Source: Muricea muricata
Taxonomy: Eukaryota > Cnidaria > Anthozoa > Malacalcyonacea > Plexauridae
Length of the DNA stretch: 64,000 nt
NCBI GenBank assembly: GCA_963855995.1
Contig: OY979716.1
Location: 23,736,283 to 23,800,282 of the forward strand
Reading direction: 5' to 3'
Part shown: positions 885 to 52,049 of the stretch, piece after piece
Layout of the letters: every line of letters starts with the position of its first letter
Numbering within the stretch: the stretch's first letter is position 1
Made by a program: the position numbers and the translations under genes
The notes under the pieces: generated by a model
The model's input: only the letters and a program-made list of their open reading frames with translations
The model's database searches: none
Told to the model about the DNA's origin: nothing

Positions 885-2590
885 TAATGACATTATAAGC
901 CCTAAGAAACGCACAAACCTTGAGGCCGAAGGTCACAACCAGCTAATAAACAACAGTGTTTCCGCTGATCCATGGCATCGACTATGCACAAACATGAAAC
1001 TATTACATCAGCAGAGTGAACATACTCATTATTTCTACATTTGACTGGGATTTCTAATTTCTGCTGTGTACTACCTTTTTTATATCACAACACAATAGCA
1101 ACACAATACTAAGCAATGTGTTTACTGTCTGTGAATTATTTATCCCCAAGCCAGCGGCGCTAAGACGGGCGTAAAACTCCTAGAAAAGTAGAAAAGACAC
1201 TTTGCATAGCATCATTAGCATGAGAACGTATGTTTCATAGTTAAAACGTGATGGGTTTAAAATTATGCTGAATCGCCGATACCAGTTGCTTCCACCCAAA
1301 AATCCTGGCTACATATATACAATTCCGCATGTTCAGAAATTTTCAAACAGATTAACAGCAACATTTTTAAAGGTGCAAAATTTAAAATTGATTAAAACAT
1401 AAGCAATCATTAATCAAAATTTTATGCAACAATTCTGGACTAGTTTTAGATTTTGTTACTAGCTAAGATGGTAAACTATTGTAGTTAGGCATTAGCCAAT
1501 GAAAGGAAAGAATATCGTTTCATATATAATTATACACTCGTGATATTTTTCCATTAAATTAAATAATATGGCATAATGTTTATTATTATTTATTGAGAAT
1601 ATTTTAGGAGTTTTGATTGGTTAATAGCTAAAGGTGAAATCATCATACCCGCTTGGTACGTGCAGTTGCCCAAATTTGCGGTTGAAAATAGATATACGGC
1701 ATTATGACTCATTACGTCGTATCTGAAAAACAAAGATATGACGTTAGTATAATGTCTGAGAAGGTTTTTGATTGGCTGACTGACTATTAAATTTAAAGCA
1801 TTATTTACTGGGAGAGCAAGAAATAATGCATTCAAAATGGCCGCCAATAAAAATCGTTTTGATGTTTTATAATTTTGACGAATTTAAAACAAATGGAGGA
1901 GAAAGGAATTACTACAAAGTACAAAGACAGCAACAAATTGGATGTTTAGCTTTTTTAGAGGAGAAATTTTCGACAATTAGTTCATTAAATACTTTTTCAC
2001 GATTTAAAACTTACGAAAAACAGTAAAAGAGGGGCAGATTTTTTAAAAATTACCAAATTTTTCAACAGACCTTCCCAACGAACTATTTTTCATGTTTAAC
2101 ATGAACATAAACAACAAATAACCCTTTGTTAAACGTTTTAAATTGTTTAGTTTGAATAATGATCAATTTTTGTTGTAAATTTTCACTGCCGTTTTACAGA
2201 CATTTGTTTACGAATTTTCCAAGCGCTACTATATTCATAACAGAATTGCATTTTATATGAATATTGCACTTTATTATACATATATTACTATTGAAATTAT
2301 ATTAAAACAATTAGTTACCGAAGGCAACGTAATTATAATTCATTTTATCGTATATTTAAAAAAGATATGACGTCCAGCTGTAATTTAAGCGGCTTTTGAC
2401 TGACCTTGTAGCTGTAATCTGACAATTGCTTTAAGAATATTTTTCCGTAGTCTGATTGGCATATTAAAGTTTCCGAACAATTTCATGCTGTTCCATTATT
2501 AGCAGCTTGTGTCTTCTTACTTACAAAGCAAGCGTTTAAATAAAGTTTAAAATATTTTGAAAAATAATAAAACAATTATTGAATTCGGTT
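885..2590. other. No gene seen
   Basis: AT-rich sequence with only short open frames and no recognisable protein motif, splice-consistent exon or long repeat. It lies inside the large inverted-repeat element. Confidence 0.5.
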
Positions 2591-2596
2591 CTTGCA

Positions 2597-2696
2597 GGAT
2601 ATGAGGAATTATTAAGGTCTCGGTTTGTGTTATCTGCTTCAGCTTTGGGCTTCGGCAGATAACACAAACCTCTTCCTTAATAATTCCTCATATCCT
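2597..2696. repeat. Near-perfect hairpin with 42-base arms
   Basis: AGGATATGAGGAATTATTAA at the left is mirrored by TTAATAATTCCTCATATCCT at the right. The inner GTTTGTGTTATCTGC pairs with GCAGATAACACAAAC around a loop of about 17 bases. This fits a small MITE or foldback remnant; no TSD is obvious. Confidence 0.6.
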
Positions 2697-3083
2697 GTTC
2701 GACCTTATTCAATAATTGTACGCACAATAGCGAGAAATTTTGTGCTCAGGACCTTCATATGCTCAACTTCTGTACTGCTGCTTAAAATCTAGCGAAGCAG
2801 CCTGTAGAACTCGCCTATCTAAACAGACTGTGTGGAAACCTGGATTATCTGTTATCATATGGCAGGGTTGGTTTAGTGTATTCTATGACTTCTTGATTTT
2901 TGTTAGCGACCTGTTCGATTTCATGAAAACAGACGCATTCCTCTTGCCTGTCCATTATCTGCCATTATCTGGCAATGTTCGCATAAACACCGAGTAATAA
3001 TAATTTATTTTACTACGAATGACACAATAGACGAACACGAAAATACAACTTGTCAATATAAACTATGAAGTATGAAGTTTTAC

Positions 3084-3327
3084 CAGTCAAGGTTGCCCAA
3101 ACGAACGACAGATTCGTCCTCGTCAGAAGAAATATTTTGGTCGTGTGCCATGTCTGCTGATTCACCACTGCCATTGTTACTATCTCGTCTAGGTTCAAAT
3201 TGATAGCCTAGAACTTCGCCACCTTGTAAAATTTCCTATGAAATTCATCTAAACTCTCACGTGAAAAACTAGAAGTTTCCGAATCTGATGAAACAACGCT
3301 CGACGAACGTACAGCATCGACATTCAT
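3084..3327 (-). pseudogene. P2X7-type ballast-domain protein, first exon, broken (copy A)
   Basis: Read on the minus strand from ATG at 3327, the exon encodes a Ser/Glu-rich leader and then, after a frameshift near 3215, an acidic stretch with the motif GYQFEP. It ends RLGNLDW at a GT donor (3083-3082) that splits the Trp codon as TG|G. P2X7-like ballast (P2RX7_C) proteins of cnidarians have this layout: an acidic leader with YQFEP, then W followed by a Cys cluster in the next exon. The copy at 48.8 kb splits its Trp codon at the same place. No second exon with the Cys cluster is visible downstream, so this is a remnant. The foldback element 3371-5148 starts 43 bp upstream of the ATG. The family assignment is from memory. 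Confidence 0.5.
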
Positions 3328-20770: not shown

Positions 20771-20978
20771 ATTCTGAAATTCCTGACAACACAGCACCCA
20801 CAACTGCTCTTAAAGATTCAATAGCTGAAAACAATACTGTCGACATAAGTATGGCGTTAGAATATTTGGCTGATTCCGATGGTTTTGAAAACACAACGCC
20901 TACAGCTGCTCGTGATGTTTCAATAGTAGTGAGGGCGCCCTATCCAAATATACAAAAAACACCAATACAGAAAACCTC

Positions 20979-22094
20979 TTGGTCGCCCCCTCAGCAATTG
21001 CATCCACTATACACGATCTGCTAAACGACCGCAGTGAAACCTCAACGAATTGTAACGCTAACTTAAAGGAAATTAGGAATAAAAATGCATTAATTCGTAA
21101 ACATACCGATATTCACAATCGACAAAAACATAATAATAAGTTAGTTAACAACGGCGATATCCAAGATGTGCAAAGAATTCCAGTACGTATTACGCAGCGG
21201 AGTTACAAGAAGAATAAACCTAAAAGGAAATCCAACAGTAACATGCATCCTATTAGGCGTCATCGTTTGGGGTTTCACCGAATCTACGACAAAACATCAA
21301 AAACCTGGGCCAATCATCTGGATCTGATTCGCACAGTGACACACGAAACACTGGTTTTAACAGCACACAATTTATCTTGTCGAAAGAGATTGTCTGGCCA
21401 TAATCCTTATAACTGTATTTCTATCCCTTTACTACCAGCCACACAAACTTCTTTACCCTCCTTGTTCGTGTCAAACACTAGATCCCTCGTGAATAAAATT
21501 GAAGACCTAGAAATCGTAATTAAAAACGATGTCGATATTGCTTGTATTACGGAAACCTGGCTGACTGCTAATATCGCAGATCCAGTTGTTGATATAAGCG
21601 GCTATACAATAGTCCGTAAAGACCGTGCCATGCCTAAGCGAGGTGGTGGTGTCTGTGCCTTTGTAAAGTCATCCATAGGTTTTAGAACTATCGAAGAATT
21701 GGATAACCCATTATTTGAATGTCTTTGGTTGTATCTTCGTCCACCTAGACTCCCGCGTGGTTTCTCGTGCATAATTATTTGTATCATTTACCACCCCCCA
21801 CTCGACAATGAAGCTGGTTTGGCTGAGTATTTAATTTCATCATTAGATACTGTTCTTGATAAAATGCCAAACGCTAGAGTAATGTTAGTGGGTGATTTCA
21901 ACCGTTTCAATTTCCGGATACTGAGTAATAATTTTAATCTTCGTCAATTGGTAAAAGCCCCAACAAGAGGAAGCGCAACATTGGATTTAATTTTAACGAA
22001 CTTGTTCGAGCATTTTTGCAAACCTGACATCCTGGTCGGTATTGGACTAAGCGACCATAAATCGATACTTATCCGCCCGTTAATGCAAGTCTAG
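20979..22094 (+). CDS. LINE AP-like endonuclease domain, open frame
   Basis: A 371-codon frame. The N-terminal third is basic and Asn-rich. The endonuclease starts at about residue 158 with FVSNTRSLVNKIEDLE (catalytic Asn). It continues CITETWL (Glu), YTIVRKDRAMPKRGGGVC, CIIYHPP, VMLVGDFNRF (Asp, Asn) and SDHKSI (Ser-Asp-His). All signature residues are present, so this module looks intact although the frame ends before the reverse transcriptase. The enzyme nicks target DNA to prime reverse transcription. The frame has no good ATG at its start and probably continued from upstream sequence. Confidence 0.8.
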   Translation: MVAPSAIASTIHDLLNDRSETSTNCNANLKEIRNKNALIRKHTDIHNRQKHNNKLVNNGDIQDVQRIPVRITQRSYKKNKPKRKSNSNMHPIRRHRLGFHRIYDKTSKTWANHLDLIRTVTHETLVLTAHNLSCRKRLSGHNPYNCISIPLLPATQTSLPSLFVSNTRSLVNKIEDLEIVIKNDVDIACITETWLTANIADPVVDISGYTIVRKDRAMPKRGGGVCAFVKSSIGFRTIEELDNPLFECLWLYLRPPRLPRGFSCIIICIIYHPPLDNEAGLAEYLISSLDTVLDKMPNARVMLVGDFNRFNFRILSNNFNLRQLVKAPTRGSATLDLILTNLFEHFCKPDILVGIGLSDHKSILIRPLMQV

Positions 22095-22355
22095 AGGGAA
22101 AAGTCAAAAGTTATTTTTAGAAGTTCTGTAAAGCCATATATGAAAGTTGCGTTAGGAAGGTGGTTAACATCAACTGATTAATTCACATTCCTGGAAGCTC
22201 TCTCTTCGTGTTCTGAAAAGCTCGACGCGTTTCAATCGTTACTGAATTATGCAATAGATCTCTTCTTCCCGTTACTAAAAAGTAAGCAACATCCAAACGA
22301 TAAACCCTGGATAACCTTAGAACTCAGATCCTTAATCCAACAAAGGCAGCAAGCT

Positions 22356-23435
22356 ATGGATAAAGACCCGATAGCGTTTAGGAAATTGAGAAATAATGTT
22401 AATAGACTGAATAGCCGTCTTCGAAGCTCTTTTTTGGAAAAAAAAGTGAAGAATTGTGACGATGCAAGCTCGTGGTGGAAATCTCAAAAACAGCTCTCAG
22501 GTTCTTCTTCAAAAAAATCTGTATCATGTGTGATCGAAGCTGACAAAGAAATTAAGTCTACAGAATTGGCTAATACAATTAACAACAGGTTCTTGCTTGC
22601 TAACAATAGCCTTCCGCCATTACCTCTTCTGCATGCATAACGATTCGGACTTGGAAAATACGGAAGAAATTGCTCTGAAATATCAAATTTCCCCTGAAGA
22701 AGTTTATAAAGAATTAGTACATTTAAAACGCGGAAAGGCATCGGGGCCTGACAATCTACCCACGTGGATTTTAAAGGAATTTGCAATGGAACTGTCGTCA
22801 CCTGTCGCCCTAATCTTCAATGCTTCGATTCAAGAAATGTCAGTTCCAAATGTTTGGAAGTTAGCTGATGTTATACCAATCCCTAAACCAACCCAGTAAA
22901 AGAAATAGAAAAGGATCTACGGCCAATATCATTTTGTTGGACAGTTGTTCTCTCTAAAACAATGGAGCGCTTTGTCGTAAAGTGGATAACGTAACAAATT
23001 AGACAATTGACTGATCTGAACCAGTCTGGATCATTACCTGGTCTGTCAACAACACATGCCCTGTTATCGTTGGTCCATCACCTATATAAGGCTACTGACC
23101 AACGTGATCAATGTGTTCGCGTTTTACTTTTAGATTTCAGTAAGGCATTCCACCGAATAAACCATAATATTTTGTTAAGGAAGATGAGAGATATGGCCAT
23201 TGACCCTACCTTGATTGAGTGGGTAAGAAGTTTCTTACCCAATAGGAAACAGCGGGTAAGGATTGGTAGTTCAACTTCGTGTTACCAACAAGTACATGGT
23301 GGCGCCCCACAGGGAACCGTACTAGGTCCTATCCTCTTTATGATAATGATCAATGATTTATCAAAGAACTGGGAAAGCCAGTGGAAATATGTAGATGACA
23401 GAACTCTTTCGGAGACGGTTATTGTAAATGAGTAA
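22356..23435 (+). pseudogene. LINE reverse transcriptase, frameshifted
   Basis: Three overlapping frames are involved: 22356-22640, 22597-22899 (KRGKASGPDNLPTWILK, WKLADVIPIPKP) and 23007-23435. The last has LLLDFSKAFHRINHNILL (first catalytic Asp), GAPQGTVLGPILFMIMINDL, and YVDDRT in place of YADDTT. Stops occur at about 22640, 22899 and 23435, and the sequence between 22900 and 23007 is out of frame. The catalytic Asp pair is still present. Confidence 0.8.
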
Positions 23436-23489
23436 TCAGTTCTGCAATGTACTCTAGATGGAATAAATCTGTGGTGTGAAGAAAATGAT

Positions 23490-24027
23490 ATGGTCCTAAA
23501 CACCAGAAAGTGTAAGGAAATCCTAATCTGTTTTTTGAAAAAGAAACCCAACTTTCAACAACTGACCGTAAATAATTATCCTGTCGAACATGCAAATTCT
23601 GCAAAATTATTGGGTGTGATGCTTAGCAGTGACCTCATGTGGAATGAGCATGTATTATATATTGTTAAAAATCTTCGAGACGTCTCTACATGTTGCGTCT
23701 CTTAAAAAGAGCAAATGCAGACAAGAAAACGTTAATTACGGTACAGTATATAGAACATGTATTAGACCAATATTGGAATGTTGTAACCAAATTTGGCGTT
23801 TTAATATCCCAGAATATTTTTCAGATGACATTGAAAGGATTCAGCGTAGAGCTTTAAAAATTATCCACCCATCGCTGTCATATAACGAAGCACTAGTGGT
23901 CTGTAACATGTCAACCCTGTGCTTAAGACGTGAACAACTCTGTCGAACATTTTTCAAAAACAAGGTGGTCCCCAAGACCCAGTCCACTATCAGATTTGGC
24001 AGAGATTGCTGCAGATCCAGGATATGA
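23490..24027 (+). pseudogene. LINE reverse transcriptase, C-terminal region
   Basis: Two overlapping frames encode KLLGVMLSSDLMWNEHV, then YRTCIRPILECCNQIWRFN, ERIQRRALKIIHPSLSYNEA and LCLRREQLCRTFFK. This is the conserved thumb and C-terminal segment of CR1/jockey-type reverse transcriptases. One frameshift lies near 23690. Confidence 0.75.
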
Positions 24028-34811: not shown

Positions 34812-35498
34812 CTGAAAGAGAATAAAAAATACAAGAAAATACTGGAAACTAACTCGATTTAAAAAAGACAATTATATCACTTTCAAGAGGTCCAGCGAGG
34901 CGTCATACTGGCGTTCTTAAAGTTGTATTTCCATCCACACCGTATCTACGTGTAGGCGGCGGTTTTATTTTTATTTTATTTTTGTTTTACAAGATTCGCC
35001 ATACATTAGAATAACAATAAATCATTAAGCAACATAATTTTAAACAAATATAACACACAATGGCCGGAATGACCACGGAGTAGCAGACAAAGTGAATGAA
35101 TATTACTATTCTATGACTAAAAAAATTATGACCTATGCTTATAAGAAAGTGGAACAATCGACCTCGCCTAAGTGTAAAAAGTTTGCAGCGCTAAAAGTCA
35201 ACGGTGCGCTTGTAAACCAAACCGGTTTACTGATTAGTGATGATTCACGATCTACTACGGTATCGATTGAGCTACCCACAAGTTACCTACTGTTTAATTA
35301 TTGCTTTACTCGGAAACTGTTATAATGTACATTTTTTACTCGTAAAATGTATATTGTCTACCTCATGCAATCCTCAAATTCCATCGAAAAAATTAGCGCA
35401 CCATTCAAAAATCATTGGTTTTAGCAAGTATAAATTTTGTAGAAGAAAGCATACGAAGTTAGATCAAACTAAAAGCACCGCCCCTGTCCCGATAATAC

Positions 35499-36704
35499 CT
35501 GTGTTATTTTTGGTGCTTCTTTTCCATATCCAAATTCAATTGCCTCATCAAGAGACTTCTTCAACAATTCCATCGCATCTTCAAACTTGCCTTGCCTGTA
35601 ATACAGATCACTTTCCACCAATTGAAACTGAATCTTGGACCCACGTGGTATATTGCTCAGGAGATCACGCTTTATTGTCCCGAGGCACTCCGCGGCGAGG
35701 CGAATAGAATCTTTCGTCACAATTCGATCGCGCCGTCCAAACGATGAAGTGGAATCTAAGAGAACTCTTGCACTTTTAATCATAGCGTAAAGTCGTTGTT
35801 TGTCGCTCACGCGCTGTCGCGAATCTTGAACACTGATTTCGCCCATTTTCTGGAAATTGGTTAAAGCAAGTGCTTTTACCTGCTCGTCTGGCTTAGCCGA
35901 TATTCCAAGAAATTCACCAAGATAAGAACCTTTTAATTCATGTAATTGTGCGAATTCTTCCAAACTGTAGCCCGACTCAAAAGATTGCTCAGCTAGGTCC
36001 AAATATTTTTTCGTTTTTCCTAACTTCCGTTTTGTCCGAGACAGCGAACTCATAATGAGCCAGACTTGTGCATGGAAAAGCGGTGGGAAACGCGTGTGCT
36101 CCGCGACTTCGTGAGCTTCACGCGCGAGTTTTTTAGTCTTGTTCAAGTCGTTTCTATAAAGTGCACATCGTGCTTGCTCTATTTTGACGCCCGCGACAAT
36201 ATCGAAGTCTTTCTCTTTGAGATATTGCTCCACCATTTTGTTGGCATATGTGTTGAATTCTTCGAAGTCACCGTTGTCTTCGCATTGTATAAGTTTTGCC
36301 TTGATGTTCTCGTAAGTTGAACTTGGAGTATAAATGACTTTGGTCGGCCCAAGGAATAAATTTTGCGGAAACGATAAAAGTTTCGTGAAAAGTTCCAAAG
36401 TTACACTAGTATTGTCATCCCTAAAAAGCCTTTTAAAAACTTTCTTAAGATGATCTGTTTCGTCTTCTCCGTTCTCCGACGAGCCGCCAGCCTCGTTTTC
36501 ATTTTGGAGGTCTATGATGACCCCGCGTTTATTGGTGTCAGCAATATCTTCTGTCAAATCACGGCCATCTCTGCTACGTAACTTTTTAAGTGCTGTTGGA
36601 AATAAATTCAACAAATAGTTTAAAAATTCTTGAAAATTGCTTGATTCGTCCAAGTCTGCTTCAAAAGGTGTTATTGCGGCAACCTGTTTATATTCAAGCG
36701 CCAT
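35499..36704 (-). CDS. TPR-like protein gene, copy 1, exon 1 (open)
   Basis: From ATG at 36704, 402 codons run to a phase-0 donor (CAG|GTATTA at 35499/35498). With exon 2 the product is 452 residues. The N-terminal ~110 residues are helical and acidic (ETDHLKKVFKRLFRDD). The rest is a series of amphipathic helix pairs resembling TPR units, for example QARCALYRNDLNKTKKLARE, KTKKYLDLAEQSFESG and ESDLYYRQGKFEDAMELLKK. TPR arrays act as protein-binding scaffolds. I do not recognise a named orthologue; it may be a cnidarian-specific family. No stop or frameshift is seen. The ATG is preceded by GCTGGTTTAG, which could be a 5'-UTR intron acceptor. Confidence 0.8.
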
Positions 36705-37226
36705 GCTAAACCAGCGAAATATCTTGATGCTTCTTCAACTGTAAGAGAATGGACAATGCCCATTATTTTAAAGCAAAATCTTCTAGCGCATCTTCATACG
36801 TGCGTAGGATGTAGTGGTTCAAATGTGACTGAGCTTGTTCGCGTGTATAAATATAACATGCATATTTGAAAACTTCGCAATGTTATATTTTCCGTATATT
36901 TCGCAACCTTGCAAATTTTATAGTTTTGATAAATTTAAGGGGAGATAAATTAGTCATGATTTTTTGGCATTTGACTCCACAAAGAGCCTCGTGGAATTCT
37001 GTTTTTTTTTGTTCGAACTAAAAGGATATTTGTGGAAGAATGTAAATTACTCTGAGCCACTGAGTATTTTAATAAATAACAGAACAATAGTAACTGCGAA
37101 AACAGTAAACATAATTGAATTGCTTATTCTTCGTTTCGATTAAATTATAGTCTTTCAGAATGAATCAAGTTATTACATATCTGTTGGTATATATGCACAC
37201 AAGATGAAAAGATATAGATAGTCAAT
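36705..37226. other. Upstream region of TPR-like copy 1
   Basis: About 20 bases before the ATG match the same position in copy 2 (AAGATAT..TTTCG/CCGCTTTAG). Beyond that no similarity or promoter motif was recognised. Confidence 0.35.
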
Positions 37227-42809: not shown

Positions 42810-42912
42810 CTCGGAAACTACATCGTGTGCACGTGGCCAGAACCGTCATTATTCATAACAATAAACGTTTACTGTACAACGAACATTGACAAAGATATCT
42901 TTCCGCTTTAGA

Positions 42913-44109
42913 ATGGCGCTTGAAGGTAAACAGCTTGCTGCAATAACATCTTTTCAAGCAGACTTGAAAGAATCAAGCAATTTTCAAAAATTTGCAAACT
43001 ATTTGATGAACTTATCCCCCACGGTATTTAAAAAGTTAAGTTTAAAACTTGACCGGAATTTGACAGAGGACACGGATGCACGCGGACGCATCGTAGACCT
43101 AGTAAATGAAAAGGAAGCTAGCAGCACGTCGGAGAGCGAAGATGACGAAACAGATCATCTTCAAGAAGTTTTTAAAAGACTTTTTAGGGATGAAAATTCT
43201 AGTGTAACATTTGAATTTTTCACGAAACTTTTGACGTTTCCGCTAAATTTATTCCGTGGGCCGACCAAAGTCATTTATACTCCAAGTTAAACTTACGAGA
43301 ACATCAAGGCAAAACTTATACAATGCGAAGACTACGGTGACTTCGTAGAATTCGACACATATGCCAACAAAATGGTGGAGCAATATCTCGAAGAGAAAGA
43401 CTTCGATATTGTTGCGGGCGTCAAAATAGAGCAAGCACGATGTGCACTTTATAGAAACGACTTGAACAAGACTAAAAAACTCGCGCGTGAAGCTCACGAA
43501 GTCGCGGAGCACACGCGTTTTCCACCACTTTTCCACGCACAAGCCTGGCTCATAATGAGTTCGCTGTCTCGAACAAAACGCAAGTTAGGAAAAACAAAAA
43601 AATATTTGGACTTAGCTGAGCAATCGTTTGAGTCGGGCTACAGTTTGGAAGAATTCGCGCATTTCCATGAAGAAAAAGGCACTTATCTTGATAAATTTCT
43701 TGGAATATCTGCCAAACCAGACGAGCAGCTGAAGGCGCTTGCTCTGACCAATTTCCAGAAAATGGGCGAAATCGGCGCGCAGGATTCACGACAGCGCGTG
43801 AGCGACAAACAACGATTTTATGCTATGACAAAAAGTGCAAGAATCCTCTTAGATTCCACTTCATCGTTTGGACGGCGCGACCGAATTGTGACGAAAGATT
43901 CTATTCGCCTCGCCGCGGAGTGCCTCGGGACAATAAAGCGCGATCTCCTGAGCAATATACCACGTGGATCCAAGATCCAGTTTCAATTGGTGGAAAGTGA
44001 TCTGTATTACAGGCAAGGCAAGTTTGAAGATGCGATGGAATTGTTGAAGAAGTCTCTTGATGAGGCAATTGAATTTGGATATGGAAAAGAAGCACCAAAA
44101 ATAACACAG
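42913..44109 (+). pseudogene. TPR-like protein gene, copy 2, exon 1 with one nonsense codon
   Basis: From ATG at 42913 the frame equals 399 codons to the donor CAG|GTAGTA (44109/44110, phase 0). Codon 126 (43288-43290) is TAA where copy 1 has TCA: YTPS*TYEN against YTPSSTYEN. No other stop or frameshift is present. The first ~110 residues differ at many positions from copy 1, while the last ~90 are identical. With exon 2 the full product would be about 449 residues. The copy is either a very young pseudogene or carries a polymorphic or erroneous base. Confidence 0.8.
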
Positions 44110-44193
44110 GTAGTATCGGGAGAGGTGAGGGTTGATCCAGAAATAGGTAGATTACACTGCAGCTGCACGAGAGAAAAATATCGGGCATCATGG

Positions 44194-44927
44194 CAACCTG
44201 ATTCTCAGGGTCTTCACCTCCGCTACCCGCGCTACGGCGAAGACCCTGACACAGGCTGGTCACGTGGCACCCAAATTTTGGGTGCTTGACATTGGTACTT
44301 ACAGGGATAGGTAAAAACGCGTTATCACAAATTATTGTCAAACAACAAGGGAGACCGACGAAGCGGGAAGTCATCTGACACTAAAACCGTATCTTTGCTT
44401 TCTTCTGTGTTTGCATCACGCTGTTGTAATCTTAAAACCTGTTAATCTGAAAAGTGTAGTTTGCTTGTCTGTACAACATTTACTTTGATTTATGACCGTA
44501 TTATATCCCAAATTCCCCACAATTTCGTACTGTACAAATAGTTGTTAGTGAAATATTTTTTGTTTTTTAACCATGAATATCGTCTCAAGCTATGTTATCA
44601 TCCACCAATATTTGCTTGTAAAATGTTCGGATCAGATAAATTAATGATACGCCTTTTAATTTTAGATTTTAAGGATTAACAGGTTTTAAGATTACAACAG
44701 CGTGATGCAAACACAAAAGAAAGCAAAGATACGGTTTTAGAGTCAGATGACTTCCCGCTTCGTCGGTCTTCCTTGTTGCTTGACAATAATTGTGATAACA
44801 CGTTTTTACCTACCCCGGCTAAGTACGAATGTCAAGCACCCAAAATTTGGTTGCCACGTGACCAGCCTGTGCCAGGGTCTTCGCCGTAGCACGGGTAGCG
44901 GAGGTGAAGACCCTGAGAATCAGGTTG
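44194..44927. mobile_element. Mutator-like foldback element with 9-bp TSD
   Basis: Termini CAACCTGATTCTCAGGGTCT and AGACCCTGAGAATCAGGTTG begin arms of about 260 bp (44194-44449 and 44664-44927). The exact 9-bp direct repeat GCATCATGG occurs at 44185-44193 and 44928-44936. Nine-base TSDs and long TIRs point to Mutator-like elements. It lies inside the intron of TPR-like copy 2 and is absent from the shorter intron of copy 1. No transposase is present. Confidence 0.85.
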
Positions 44928-46792: not shown

Positions 46793-46915
46793 CCAGTTGA
46801 CTCGATAGCTCAATTGGTAGAGCGGCGGTCTAGAAACCAGAAGATGCGAGTTCGAATCCCGCTCGAGACAGCGAATTTCTCGTTGTTCTCTGCGGTGTCA
46901 GATTAATATGAATTC
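46793..46915 (+). repeat. tRNA-derived SINE, copy 1
   Basis: Box A (TAGCTCAATTGG, 46806-46817) and box B (GAGTTCGAATCCC, 46848-46860) have tRNA spacing. The ends (GACTCGA/TCGAGAC) nearly pair as an acceptor stem and the D-arm GCTC..GAGC is intact, but the anticodon arm does not fold well. The trailer GCGAATTTCTCGTTGTTCTC recurs in copy 2, so this is a SINE rather than a functional tRNA. Confidence 0.65.
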
Positions 46916-47345: not shown

Positions 47346-48514
47346 ACAGACACTTATCGTTCCAGTTTACTCCAGTTCAATGGTCAGTTGTGGCAAGAAG
47401 GCTACAGCAGAGTGTGAATATTGCTCTTAGAACCAAACTCGATCCGACGTTTAAAAACGCGTTTTAAATGTGAATTATGGAATGATTACGCAGAGTTGCA
47501 AATGAAAAATGTTTTCCTCTATTAAAATAGCGAGTTACATGGATATTTACTACAAAAGGTGAAGACGTATGTTTGTAAATCAACTGACGCCATGACAGCC
47601 CACGTGCTCGAGAATACAGCTATATTCAAGAGCCTGAATCATTTAGTATCTCAGCTGAACGTATTTCATAAGGTGAGAACTTACAAAGGTATTAACTTTA
47701 TTTAACAATATTTTGTAAGAGTTTAACAAACCAGTTGAAATCATGATCAAGACTTTCAATTGCACATGGCCCTCCACATGCTAGGATATAAATTTTGTTG
47801 TCCTGCCATAACCTCCAGCATTTACATGTTTGTGTGTTTCAGCGATCTCGTTAGTTTTATAGCAGGGGAGAAGCTCTGGTTGTAATTTTTTCAGATTTTA
47901 TCTTAATTTGGGTACTGGAATAACTTTAGAATACCTGACCTGACTGACTGAAATTCCACTGCATTTAATTGCAACTGACTAATAAAGCTATTTAAGCATG
48001 CACTGGTGTGACCATACATGCAAGTTTTTTTTTACCAAAGCTGCTTAGATTTGCTGGGACCACCCCGTCGTGTTCTAAATGTTGCAAATCTCTAAAGCAC
48101 AGGGGAATGTCCAAGCCCATCCAACTGGATCTGGTAAAAAAATATACTACATCTGGTCACACTGGCATACACCAATTCATGTATCAAAGTCAATCACGAG
48201 AAGGGAAGGCGGGTAGAGCAGAGCATCCTTCCCCCCACTCTGGGAATAATCATTCCTAATTTTATCTGAAGTATATATTTTTTAACAAATGTTTTTTTAA
48301 CAAATGAGTCAAGCTCCCCCCTCAGGCTTCATTTTGACACCTGTATAAATTGACTGATTACAGTGCAATGTAAACTATTGCCAGGAAACCAGCAATTAAT
48401 AATGCATTGTCTAACATCAAAATTTGCTTCATTTGAAATATTTTTTGCCTCTACTTTGCTATAGCAACATAAAGCTATCTAAGCGATAAATTTCTAGGTT
48501 TTGTTTGAAGTATA
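47346..48514. other. No gene seen
   Basis: Short frames only, without motifs, up to the TTAA target site of the next element. Confidence 0.4.
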
Positions 48515-48776
48515 TTAAAGTGCTTATAAACCCAAAATGGGTTATTGGTGATTCAGATAGAGCTAAAAAAGTTAGTTAGTAAGTTATTATTTAGTTTTTT
48601 CGTTAAGCGTTTAGTTACGGAGATAACCGGGCTCAAAGAAGCCAGCTCGTTGAAAAAGTGCGCGCCTGTGGGAGACTGGATCCCAGGAACATGTTTATGT
48701 AGACTTTATATACAATTACATAGTAATATTAGTCTCGAAGCTCAAAGATCAGCTATTTTTGCGTAAAAAAGTTGGA

Positions 48777-49744
48777 ATGTCTTCCTCAAATTCATTCTCA
48801 AGTACACATAGCAAGGCTTCTACGAGCATGCCTCTTGAAATCGAAAATGAACAGTACGAAAGTGAAATTTAATTGAAAAATCACACGATGAAGGCACTCA
48901 AGGTAGCCATGATGGCGAAAACTATTACATGGATGCTTACTCAGACGAGCCAATTGCTGACGAAAATTGGCTTCAAGAGTATTACCGGAGGCGGGAAGAG
49001 GAAGCTGAAAAAGTTAAGGAATTACAACTTCGATGGAAAGAGAGTAAACCTGTAACATCATGGTAATTTTCGTACAATTTTTATTTTTTGCCATGCGCGT
49101 CACTTGGTATGTGTTTTAAATCATATGCGCAAATTAAATTTTCAACAAACTGAGCTGAGAGTTGCCTTATCAATTAAACAGCATTGTCATTTACATTTCA
49201 TAATTACATTAAAGTGGGTTTTTTAAAATTCATTCTACCATCAATATTCGTTCCATAGGTGCACTGGTAGCACTGGATTGTTGCAAAATGCCAAAGAATG
49301 CTGTTGTTGCCTGGAGATCGAAAATTGCTTACAGTTCATTGAAGTTTATTGTAACGATGGTAAAGGAGCACTGAAATGTATAACAGATCACCCTGGTTTT
49401 CCAGCTGTTTGCCTCAACAAGTGGTCGTTATAGATTGCGGCTGATAATTGTAAAACTCGAGATGGTCAGCATTACAGACAGAGTGGTTCAAAAGAAAGGT
49501 AGACTTATTACCATTCATTTTAGCTGAAGATGTAACTATTATGTAACATTGATATGTATTTTTCTAATATAGGTATCTTCGAGGTGTTGCATATAGACAG
49601 TTCACACGGATGGTACATGGTCGGTTAAGGGATAAAAGAATACCATTGCCTTCTTGTGCATATACTGCTATTCGTTCCACTTTTAAGCTTGATCATGCAT
49701 TTACTGGCTATGATGATATTGAAACAGATGACGAGAATCAATAA
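48777..49744 (+). pseudogene. P2X7-type ballast-domain (P2RX7_C) gene, three exons, broken (copy C)
   Basis: Exon 1 (48777-49062) starts MSSSNSFSSTHSKAS, hits a TAA at 48870 and a frameshift, and resumes with DEPIADENWLQEYYRRREEE and KPVTSW. Exon 2 (49259-49498) completes the Trp and reads LLQNAKECCCCLEIENC, CITDHPGFPAVCLNKW, a TAG where Gln is usual, then IAADNCKTRDGQHYRQ. Exon 3 (49573-49744) reads YLRGVAYRQFTRMVHGRL, IPLPSCAYTAIRSTF and FTGYDDIE to a stop. Splice phases agree throughout. CCCC, HPGF.A.CLN, YRQF and LPSCA..IR are the hallmarks of the C-terminal ballast of vertebrate P2X7. No channel part is present. One frameshift and two stops break it. Confidence 0.8.
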
Positions 49745-50634
49745 TTATCTTTAAATTGGTACAGACATGTTTTTAATATGCTAGCTCACTATTAGAAGTT
49801 CAAAGACTTAAGTATCTGAAGTATATAAAATCTTTTAACAGCTGCAATAATTTCTGTTAATTATGTCTCTACACAATTGCAAGTAAATATTACATGTGCT
49901 CTGAGAAATAGCATCTTGCATAAAAATGAACAAACTTGTTTGACAATATTTTCTAGTTATACCACATGAAAATTAATTTTTACCTCAACGTTAACTTGAA
50001 TGAATTTGAATTTTATCATCATCCCCCTGCCCTCCCCCTACTAATTATTGATTCTATCGGCCACTCAAGAATTTTGAGTATCTCAAAATATACTGGGTCA
50101 AACAGTGTTATTATTAAGTTCTTCATAAGTTTGCATGGTGAGCATCAATATCAGTTATTATTACCTAAAGTTTGTTTTCATAACCCAGCTTGACAAGATG
50201 CTATCTTGGGAGTATATTTTCCATTGACTGGCAGATTTTTACATTCAGAGACATCTGTGTTGGATTAATGTGTGCATAATATATTATTTCATTAATAGAT
50301 TACTGCCACACCATGGCATTGTGTGCTCAATTTGCTTATGGCAGCCATTTTATCTGGGACACCAAGATAAAAACTTTTTATAATCCATCTAATAACAAAT
50401 CAATTTATTTTCAAATCTTTGCTTATTTAACCTTATTGCTACTGGTATGGAAGCAAACAAAGACTTTTTGATATTATTTTTAATTTTTGACAAAATATAA
50501 CAAAATGTAAACAATAACAAAAGCCTGCAATACTATGGTGTGACAGTAACCTTTAAACAAGAAAAATATTTTTGGTAAAATGGCAAACAAGTGCTTCTGT
50601 AATATATACATTCCAAGTGCAATGCAGTGCAACT

Positions 50635-51014
50635 TTAGTTTGTTTTATTTCTTGGACAGGAAGCTACATTTTTGTGGCCTTTCATAGGCTTATTGCACAT
50701 CTTGCATTTTGGTGCATTTCTTTTTGGTTTGGTGCTGGTAGTTGATGCAGTTGGAACCGTGTAAAATAACATATAAAGCATCAGTACTGGGTATAATACT
50801 CGAAACATTCTGGCGTAAAGTGTTTTGAGCAAACAACAGACGAACGTGTTGGCGTCCATTTATCTCGCCTCCGTCGAACGAAGTCCATCCATTTCTTCCT
50901 TCGTTTTACTGCGTCGGATGAGCTTTCATCCCAAAATGGTATCTGGTACAAGAATATATCATTTTCCTTGTCTGTAGTATTAGAACACCCGTAAACAACG
51001 CATCTTTCAAGCAT
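50635..51014 (-). pseudogene. THAP-domain protein with C-terminal zinc knuckle, frameshifted
   Basis: From ATG at 51014 the frame reads CVVYGCSNTTD, KKWMDFVRRRRDKWTPT and VVCSKHFTPECFE. This gives C-x4-C and C-x2-H zinc ligands with the invariant Trp, Pro and Phe of a THAP DNA-binding domain. After a frameshift near 50785 comes YTVPTAS, equivalent to the AVPTIF box, and then CKMCNKPMKGHKNVASC, a zinc-knuckle-like motif, before the stop. THAP domains are the DNA-binding part of P-element and Kolobok transposases. No catalytic domain follows, so this small protein may bind the element's own ends. That is inference. Confidence 0.75.
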
Positions 51015-51275
51015 TTTTCCACAAAAAACTGCGGTGACACATGCATTCGCAATACAACGCGCTTAGTGACTGTGAAAATTGGTTCCTGGGACCCAGGCCT
51101 CTAAGCATAAAATTTGGATGCGCACTTTTTTTCCCAAATGTGGCCAAACTAGCACGTTTGACTGCATTTATCTCCAGAACTAAACGCTCAACAAAAAAAC
51201 TAAATTATAACTTACTAACTAACTTTTTTAGCTCTATTTGGATCACCAAAAAACCATTTTGGGTTTATAAGCACT

Positions 51276-52049
51276 TTAAGCAATATAAAGCATTTCCATT
51301 CCTTGTTTTTCTGGGATTTTACGAAGGTTTGTTTTCAAGATTGTTTATATAGGCTCTTAGTTTTACTCTAGTTATACTGTAGATTTAAAATCATTATTAC
51401 TGTGATGTCCTCGAACATATTTTTACAAATATAGCAACTAGAAATTTTTCTTGCATGTGGCCCTTGTGGTACTATTAGAGAGAGAGGTTGGTTGTTCAGT
51501 GCCTGTTTCGCTGACTTTATTTGATCAGGATTGTTGGTATAGGTGTTTTGTTTTACTCTACTGTAGGTTTGGCTTGAAAGTTTAGATATTTAGTTTCAGA
51601 TATTTCTGGAATACAAGTGCAACTTTGGCTCTACTTGCTCGAAGTTTATATTATTGGGTTGTATTGAATATTTTGTTGCTAAGAATGGCAAATGACGTGA
51701 AGAAAGTCCCAGACCCACTTTATATGACATACTTGACCCAAGCAGAACTATTACTGCAGATTTAAGTCCATCTAATACAAGGAAATTTAGGCACAATGCT
51801 GGTATTAAAGCGGTGTGTTGCTATGTTGCTAATGTGGTATGATCATAGGCGGCCCATGCCTGGCGCACGCTCTGTTGTGTTCATTCGTATTATCCAGCAT
51901 GCTCTGTTTTGTTCAGGGTTATAATAATAATAATAGTAACTTTAATAAAGTGTTGATGTGTTTAGCTAGTACAACTAATTGAGGACACTATTTGTTAACA
52001 AATATTTACAATTATTAGATGTAAACATATTGCATTATTGCTCAATTTA
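51276..52049. other. No gene seen
   Basis: Only short frames; a brief AAT-rich simple repeat lies near 51916-51945. Confidence 0.4.

Follow-up and report, generated by a model that had tools for sequence, protein, structure and literature searches.

The stretch of DNA analyzed here comprises 64,000 nucleotides of the anthozoan Muricea muricata (assembly GCA_963855995.1, contig OY979716.1, positions 23,736,283 to 23,800,282 of the forward strand) and is called the window in the following. Positions 48515-51279 of the window are occupied by an element of 2.76 kb, TTAA target sites included, which is one copy of a young transposon family without a transposase of its own and which contains the broken remnants of two convergent genes. 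Very probably it belongs to a Kol0-type family of Kolobok DNA transposons, of which it is a non-autonomous member with internal deletions, present here in its short form. The two TTAA copies (48515-48518 and 51276-51279) were assigned from the sequence and from empty sites. Alignment of the arms revealed a left inverted repeat that starts with AGTGCTTATAAACCC (48519-48637, plus strand) and a right inverted repeat (51157-51275, minus strand). With the TTAA counted in, the arms (48515-48637 and 51157-51279) have a length of 123 nt and are 89% complementary, which confirms the TTAA-flanked element with inverted ends proposed in a previous description of the locus, the sequence-only reading. The termini directly inside the TTAA are AG on the left and CT on the right, in agreement with the 5'-RR / YY-3' rule that distinguishes Kolobok from piggyBac elements according to Kojima and Bao (2022, PMC9587614).

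The first gene remnant is a ballast (KolX) gene on the plus strand. Three exons are predicted (48777-49062, 49259-49498, and 49573-49744), and their borders are GT and AG. Exon 1 has 286 nt compared to 287 nt in copies with an open frame, and it runs into a stop codon. Exon 2 has lost 9 nt, which takes out two cysteines of the motif CxCxxC; in its own frame it reads WCTGSTG where other copies read WCTCGNC. The latter version is visible in some of the copies, and its counterpart in P2X7 is WCQCGNC. Exon 3 matches the Pfam model P2RX7_C with an E-value of 0.0023, but its score of 18.3 bits does not reach the curated cut-off of 23.5 bits. When eight frames of the element were scanned with Pfam, no P2X channel domain was seen, and no genome-wide search for P2X genes was made.

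The second remnant is located on the minus strand. It consists of an open frame of 77 amino acids plus stop with a clear THAP domain (50781-51014, Pfam E 3e-12), a remnant of the first transposase exon that ends few residues past the C2CH part, and of a zinc knuckle (50635-50760, PKCKMCNKPMKGHKNVASCPRN), the last part of the transposase gene, which was named by eye and has no Pfam match. Copy alignment places the junction of an 848-bp internal deletion, relative to a longer form described below, at approximately 50796-50799, and the THAP and zinc-knuckle parts are in different frames across this junction. The THAP/zinc-knuckle gene is best read as a transposase gene the catalytic middle of which has been deleted. 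The sequence-only reading had described two convergent genes, a three-exon ballast gene and a THAP/zinc-knuckle gene, with ATGs 258 and 261 bp from the respective ends. The distances were found again (ATGs at 48777 and 51014), and both types of remnants, the three predicted exons and the THAP domain are indeed present; however, both genes are damaged in the window.

A genome search with window positions 48500-51300 gave 130 matches (40 scored of 410 candidates), and therefore the element is multicopy. For comparison, the window element and 39 further copies were taken with their flanks, and four copies (L066-L069) were added later, resulting in a set of 44. TTAA is present at both ends in 36 of the first 40 copies; the other four (L037, L041, L044, and L047) are incomplete, with one end truncated. 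The flanks of the copies differ from one another, with the exception of L027 and L028, which have their flanks in common, and L013 and L018 reside in related repeats. Twelve additional left-end matches of at least 98% were found beyond the first set (40 of 353 candidates scored); the four that were read in sequence, L066-L069, all contain the short-form junction, and gene-free copies that have the ends may exist among the rest. One of these, L068, is cut before its right end and carries an insertion (about 276-796), in which helicase-like residues (QYEAVKAVVVDRKDTICILPIGHGKSLIYQ), perhaps RecQ-like, were noticed by eye.

The two flanks of the window element were joined through one TTAA and used as a query against the genome. 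They match C1:22724656-22724910 and C1:22502717-22502971, each over 255 of 255 bases with 98% identity and with a single TTAA, and both places are read as paralogous empty sites. It follows that the TTAA was duplicated on insertion, and the insertion at TTAA that the sequence-only reading suggested to confirm by alignment of empty sites is borne out. Two more diverged comparisons agree in spacing with such an empty-site interpretation. The joined flanks of L018 align with 84% and 81% identity to the repeats on either side of L013, with TTTA as target, and the joined flanks of L013 align across the junction to the repeats beside L018 (82% and 81%), the first match being gap-free at the junction with the target TCAA and the second requiring small gaps there.

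Neither gene is preserved in the family as the sequence-only reading had expected. With the exon model described above, the ballast frame is open in four of the 44 copies (L030, L031, L032, and L069), which all lack the third cysteine of CxCxxC. The motif is present in the spliced translations of five other copies (L029, L039, L045, L046, and L068), all of which contain stops, and not a single one of the 44 combines an open ballast frame with a full CxCxxC. The THAP frame is open through the C2CH part in 29 of the 44 copies, or in 30 of 45 when a locus with a catalytic domain (see below) is included; of the remaining rows ten are broken and five have no recognized start, L068 among them being cut before the site. 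Both frames are open in the same four copies that have an open ballast frame, the THAP frame being the truncated one. Therefore, the search for further copies with both genes intact was successful with regard to the copies, which are many, but none of the 44 has two truly intact genes. The notion that the two genes are working cargo is not supported: an intact ballast gene occurs in none of the 44 copies, and the THAP/zinc-knuckle gene appears to be a deleted transposase.

What has been deleted can be deduced from a longer form, the existence of which was directly observed. Six copies (L041-L046) retain 848 bp that are absent from the window, located between the THAP and zinc-knuckle parts, so that additional exon-like pieces separate THAP from the zinc knuckle. 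When the long-form segment was used as a query, 16 matches were obtained: eight contiguous ones, among them the six copies L041-L046, seven that belong to three loci at which the segment is split (C1:44.14, C1:97.07, and C1:36.22-36.23 Mb), and one on C16, which is short and has 74% identity. The split point is nearly common to all three loci (query 131 to 134 or 143), and the pieces are about 3.0 kb (C1:44.14 Mb), 7.4 kb, and 16.5 kb apart; the latter two gaps presumably contain additional insertions, and the segment at C1:97.07 Mb is interrupted a second time by a smaller break.

The 3.0-kb gap (L070) encodes on its transposase strand, collinear with the element, DDE and C/DxxH motifs, including DxxH, that were read by eye: AGDGRHDSMGHSAKY, FVSDRHATI, FDIWHLKK, and SCLEGFHSVLNQ. 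The reading continues into LDKQSREEAIAKRKARDSMTCAD, which is an exon of the long form itself. When the first part of this DDE region was searched for at the protein level, matches also appeared in the other two gaps, at C1:36233280 (93%) and C1:97072305 (76%). The locus at C1:44.14 Mb carries THAP, and its right end is the same inverted repeat with TTAA. None of the frames of the window copy encodes a DDE transposase with the C/DxxH signature, as had been noticed before, and therefore it can belong to Kolobok only as a non-autonomous derivative. Kolobok-like DDE matches are present in all three split gaps, which explains the missing catalytic domain: the window copy is best interpreted as derived from a THAP-headed Kolobok by internal deletion in two steps. 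The earlier suggestion that THAP together with TTAA fits Kolobok is supported by the RR/YY termini, the duplication of TTAA, and the DDE-like stretches that three relatives have where the window copy lacks a catalytic domain.

Ballast genes are not confined to this family. A genome search with P2RX7_C (PF20478) revealed at least 150 ballast matches, since all 150 that were scored, out of 740 candidates, exceed the Pfam threshold. Contig C1 represents 27% of the assembly and accounts for about 117 of these 150; as they are the scored portion of the candidates, this may be bias. The first 12 loci were taken with 1.5 kb on each side, and two pairs were extended to the ends. L056 and L057 are 99.3% identical over 7.0 kb at different genomic places, and both sides end in TTAA plus AGCGGGGTTACAGTCC or a close variant. 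L051 is bounded at both ends by TTAA plus AGAGGGGGAAAAGTCCC, while for L050 only the left end was identified. Both sister families are thus TTAA elements with inverted ends of their own. They contain KolX on one strand and a gene encoding GDGRNDSPGHS, VVTDGH, and NDVWHGG on the other, in convergent orientation as in the window. KolX of L056 scores 129.1 bits with P2RX7_C and matches solved P2X7 chains with an E-value of 3.7e-24. Two of five pieces of L070, which cover the region as far as the first D and its surroundings, can be aligned with both sister genes (35-39% identity, E 3e-5 to 2e-12). A host-gene nature of the ballast genes was rejected for the two extended families, both of which lie inside TTAA elements (two families, from 12 loci returned and 150 matches scored); here the situation of genes at many loci without inverted ends and TTAA, which had been named as refuting the transposon interpretation, was not seen. 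Pieces of the THAP/zinc-knuckle gene gave chance-level matches only in the sister elements (best E 0.25). An apparent giant ballast fusion in a frame of 2543 amino acids at C1:21231323-21231646 proved to be an artefact of a run of N: of the 1401 bases of the stretch 621 are N, and none of the six frames is free of stops. By eye, the sister KolX genes (L056 164-535 and L050 1-450) appear to start with two stretches ahead of the ballast exon, a distinct cysteine-rich one (CSCRGNCLRESGRNFCPCRSLNHYCSSTCHD) and one rich in RG, unlike the window ballast gene with its acidic start. At L052 a frame of 292 amino acids resembling an integrase core (2374-3249, by eye) adjoins the ballast gene.

For the window family, exons 2 and 3 of L031 reach 24.8 bits with P2RX7_C, over the cut-off, and a BLASTP alignment of the ballast protein of L031 to the KolX protein of one sister element has an E-value of 3e-11 (28% identity). 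Because the Pfam scores are near the cut-off and the sister KolX can be aligned, the ballast domain is considered to be present in the family in a diverged form. Several observations weigh against this assignment and against the Kolobok interpretation as a whole. The Pfam comparison proposed in the sequence-only reading turned out to be clear for THAP and weaker for ballast, with scores that hover around the cut-off (22.1 bits for a composite sequence), and no P2RX7_C match was listed for the whole 232-amino-acid translation of L031 at E-values up to 0.5. A comparison of exons 2 and 3 of L031 with the PDB retrieved no P2X7 chain at E-values up to 1. The three other pieces of L070 (DxxH, the zinc-finger region, and the last E) match the sister genes only with E-values of 0.02 or worse. 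At the position of the last E the L051 element has TGFLESFH and the L056 element TGFLKTFH, i.e., a K. No THAP match was found in the sister transposase genes, and the domain is usual but not universal in the Kolobok superfamily. No Pfam model recognizes the DDE pieces, the best match being Mutator with an E-value of 0.04, below the cut-off, and the DDE frames at C1:44.14 and C1:97.07 Mb hold stops. The left part of the C1:44.14 Mb locus, the one locus that was read, is interrupted by another THAP-bearing stretch, and no intact full-length copy of the window family was read from end to end. Lastly, the name Kolobok is based on target-site duplication, termini, THAP, KolX, and motifs read by eye, and not on an alignment to a named Kolobok transposase. 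As an additional observation, the interrupting stretch (L071) contains another THAP-like frame and a frame of 356 amino acids, perhaps P-element-like, as judged by eye.

The proposed history is as follows. A full-length parent of about 6.5 kb would have contained KolX, reading inward from one end, and a THAP-DDE-zinc-knuckle transposase gene, reading inward from the other. Deletion of catalytic sequence, about 3.0 kb, would have generated the 3.5-kb long form, and the further loss of 848 bp the short form found in the window. Order and direction of the deletions are deduced, and 3.0 kb first, followed by 848 bp, would be the simplest history. The short form probably moved by cut-and-paste, with a transposase supplied in trans by full-length relatives that recognized its ends, and the gene remnants would have been passengers. 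The arms of the terminal inverted repeats probably held the two promoters of the parent, and the spacing of 258 and 261 bp to the ATGs fits putative promoters in or just inside the ends.

The passenger status was addressed by counting singleton substitutions among 34 short-form copies. In ballast exons 1 and 3 they amount to 3.38, 4.60, and 3.40 per 1000 at codon positions 1, 2, and 3, compared to 3.53 in introns and 3.24 in intergenic DNA, and the values for THAP are 3.78, 3.78, and 4.20. Both remnants thus look like neutral passengers. The parent may have been different: between the window and the DDE-bearing locus the THAP sequences have a nonsynonymous divergence (dN) of 0.035 and a synonymous divergence (dS) of 0.292, and therefore THAP was probably under constraint in the parent lineage. 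For three pairs of derivatives dN and dS are 0.041 and 0.046, 0.017 and 0.023, and 0.047 and 0.023, i.e., dN is about dS or above; all these figures are single short comparisons.

Of the alternatives, the best is persistence of the derivatives through a repressor: the shortened THAP protein would bind to the ends and thereby suppress transposition. The KP protein of the P element is a repressor of transposition and offers a comparison. Such a role would be in line with the open C2CH frame of 29 of the 44 copies, as opposed to a ballast frame ruined in most of them, and with the sparser indels of the THAP exon: relative to the window it has four events (0.56 per 1000 aligned bases), and intergenic DNA, four times as long, has 83 (2.9 per 1000). 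However, the ruined ballast exons 2 and 3 are likewise poor in indels (0.86 and 1.03 per 1000), so a low indel density is no mark of function and the scarcity in THAP can be no more than a weak hint at constraint. Furthermore, the singletons at the THAP codon positions give no sign of constraint, and dN among the derivatives reaches or exceeds dS, unlike in the comparison with the DDE-bearing locus. A repressor function is unlikely. The same holds true for the more elaborate idea that repeated internal deletion frees a 77-residue THAP protein, which binds the common ends and curbs the parent, so that the broken copies would form a self-limiting system; we would give it little chance.

A piggyBac-type element would also target and duplicate TTAA, and a KolX-like protein has been reported for some piggyBac families. 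Nevertheless, this assignment is very improbable, because the AG...CT termini are those stated for Kolobok in contrast to piggyBac, THAP is found at the start of the transposase, L070 contains a DxxH motif (by eye), and no piggyBac DDE Pfam match was obtained among nine proteins scanned. That the short form is itself an autonomous two-gene element, moved by the THAP/zinc-knuckle and ballast proteins via an unknown catalytic mechanism, can be dismissed almost entirely: the DNA of both remnants is present in the 40 aligned copies, and the frames are partly open, but no copy has an open ballast frame with a full CxCxxC, THAP and zinc knuckle are out of frame with each other in the window, DDE-like sequence occupies the missing position in three relatives, and singletons are distributed about evenly over codon positions, introns, and intergenic DNA.

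As an internally deleted Kolobok derivative, the window element can be compared with several known systems. The Kol0 lineage is characterized by a second gene for a KolX protein with ballast fold and seven zinc cysteines. Kojima and Bao (2022, PMC9587614) ascribe the ballast fold to the KolX of this lineage and conclude that P2X7 originated when a P2X4-like gene was fused with KolX. The suggestion of the sequence-only reading that a mobile element was the source of the P2X7 domain is therefore sound, but it was already in print. Kol0 elements (Kolobok-1_XT type) described there share the TTAA duplication, the RR...YY termini, and the combination of a KolX gene with a DDE transposase gene. In contrast, the window element lacks the DDE core, its KolX is broken, and the transposase of its parent appears to have had THAP first and the zinc knuckle last. 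The occurrence of THAP, DDE, and TTAA in Kolobok has been described for Xenopus (PMC6004289). The Xenopus Kolobok (XKol) and T2-MITE elements have TTAA sites and AG termini as well, XKol transposases carry THAP, DDE, and H2CH, and the non-autonomous relatives are thought to be moved in trans, as proposed here (PMC6004289). Differences are the inverted ends and the recognizable pieces of both genes that are kept in the non-autonomous form of the window. Animal ballast (ZCD) proteins, as presented by Rump et al. (2020, PMC7016195), share a cysteine-led zinc domain in short proteins, and for one Ixodes protein a preceding "TAHP" domain (as printed) is mentioned. Fewer than ten ballast genes per species are given there, compared to the at least 150 matches over the Pfam cut-off in this genome, and the words "transpos-" and "mobile" are absent from its main text. 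New here is a THAP-headed family with a deletion series in a 453-Mb genome. The published placement of the P2X7 ballast domain in Kolobok transposons receives independent support from the empty sites and the deletion intermediates. In addition, a deleted transposase can pass for a separate THAP/zinc-knuckle gene, and some animal genes labeled P2X7-like may be transposon proteins.

The window contains several other features. Two similar frames in opposite orientation (35469-36734 on the minus strand and 42865-44289 on the plus strand, the latter split into two frames) have weak TPR matches below the cut-off. Frames of a non-long-terminal-repeat retrotransposon are present at 20916-24027 on the plus strand, with an Exo_endo_phos match at 20916-22094 (E 3e-08) and, further downstream, reverse-transcriptase-like residues that were recognized by eye. 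A tRNA gene match of 46.5 bits is located at 46799-46870 on the plus strand.

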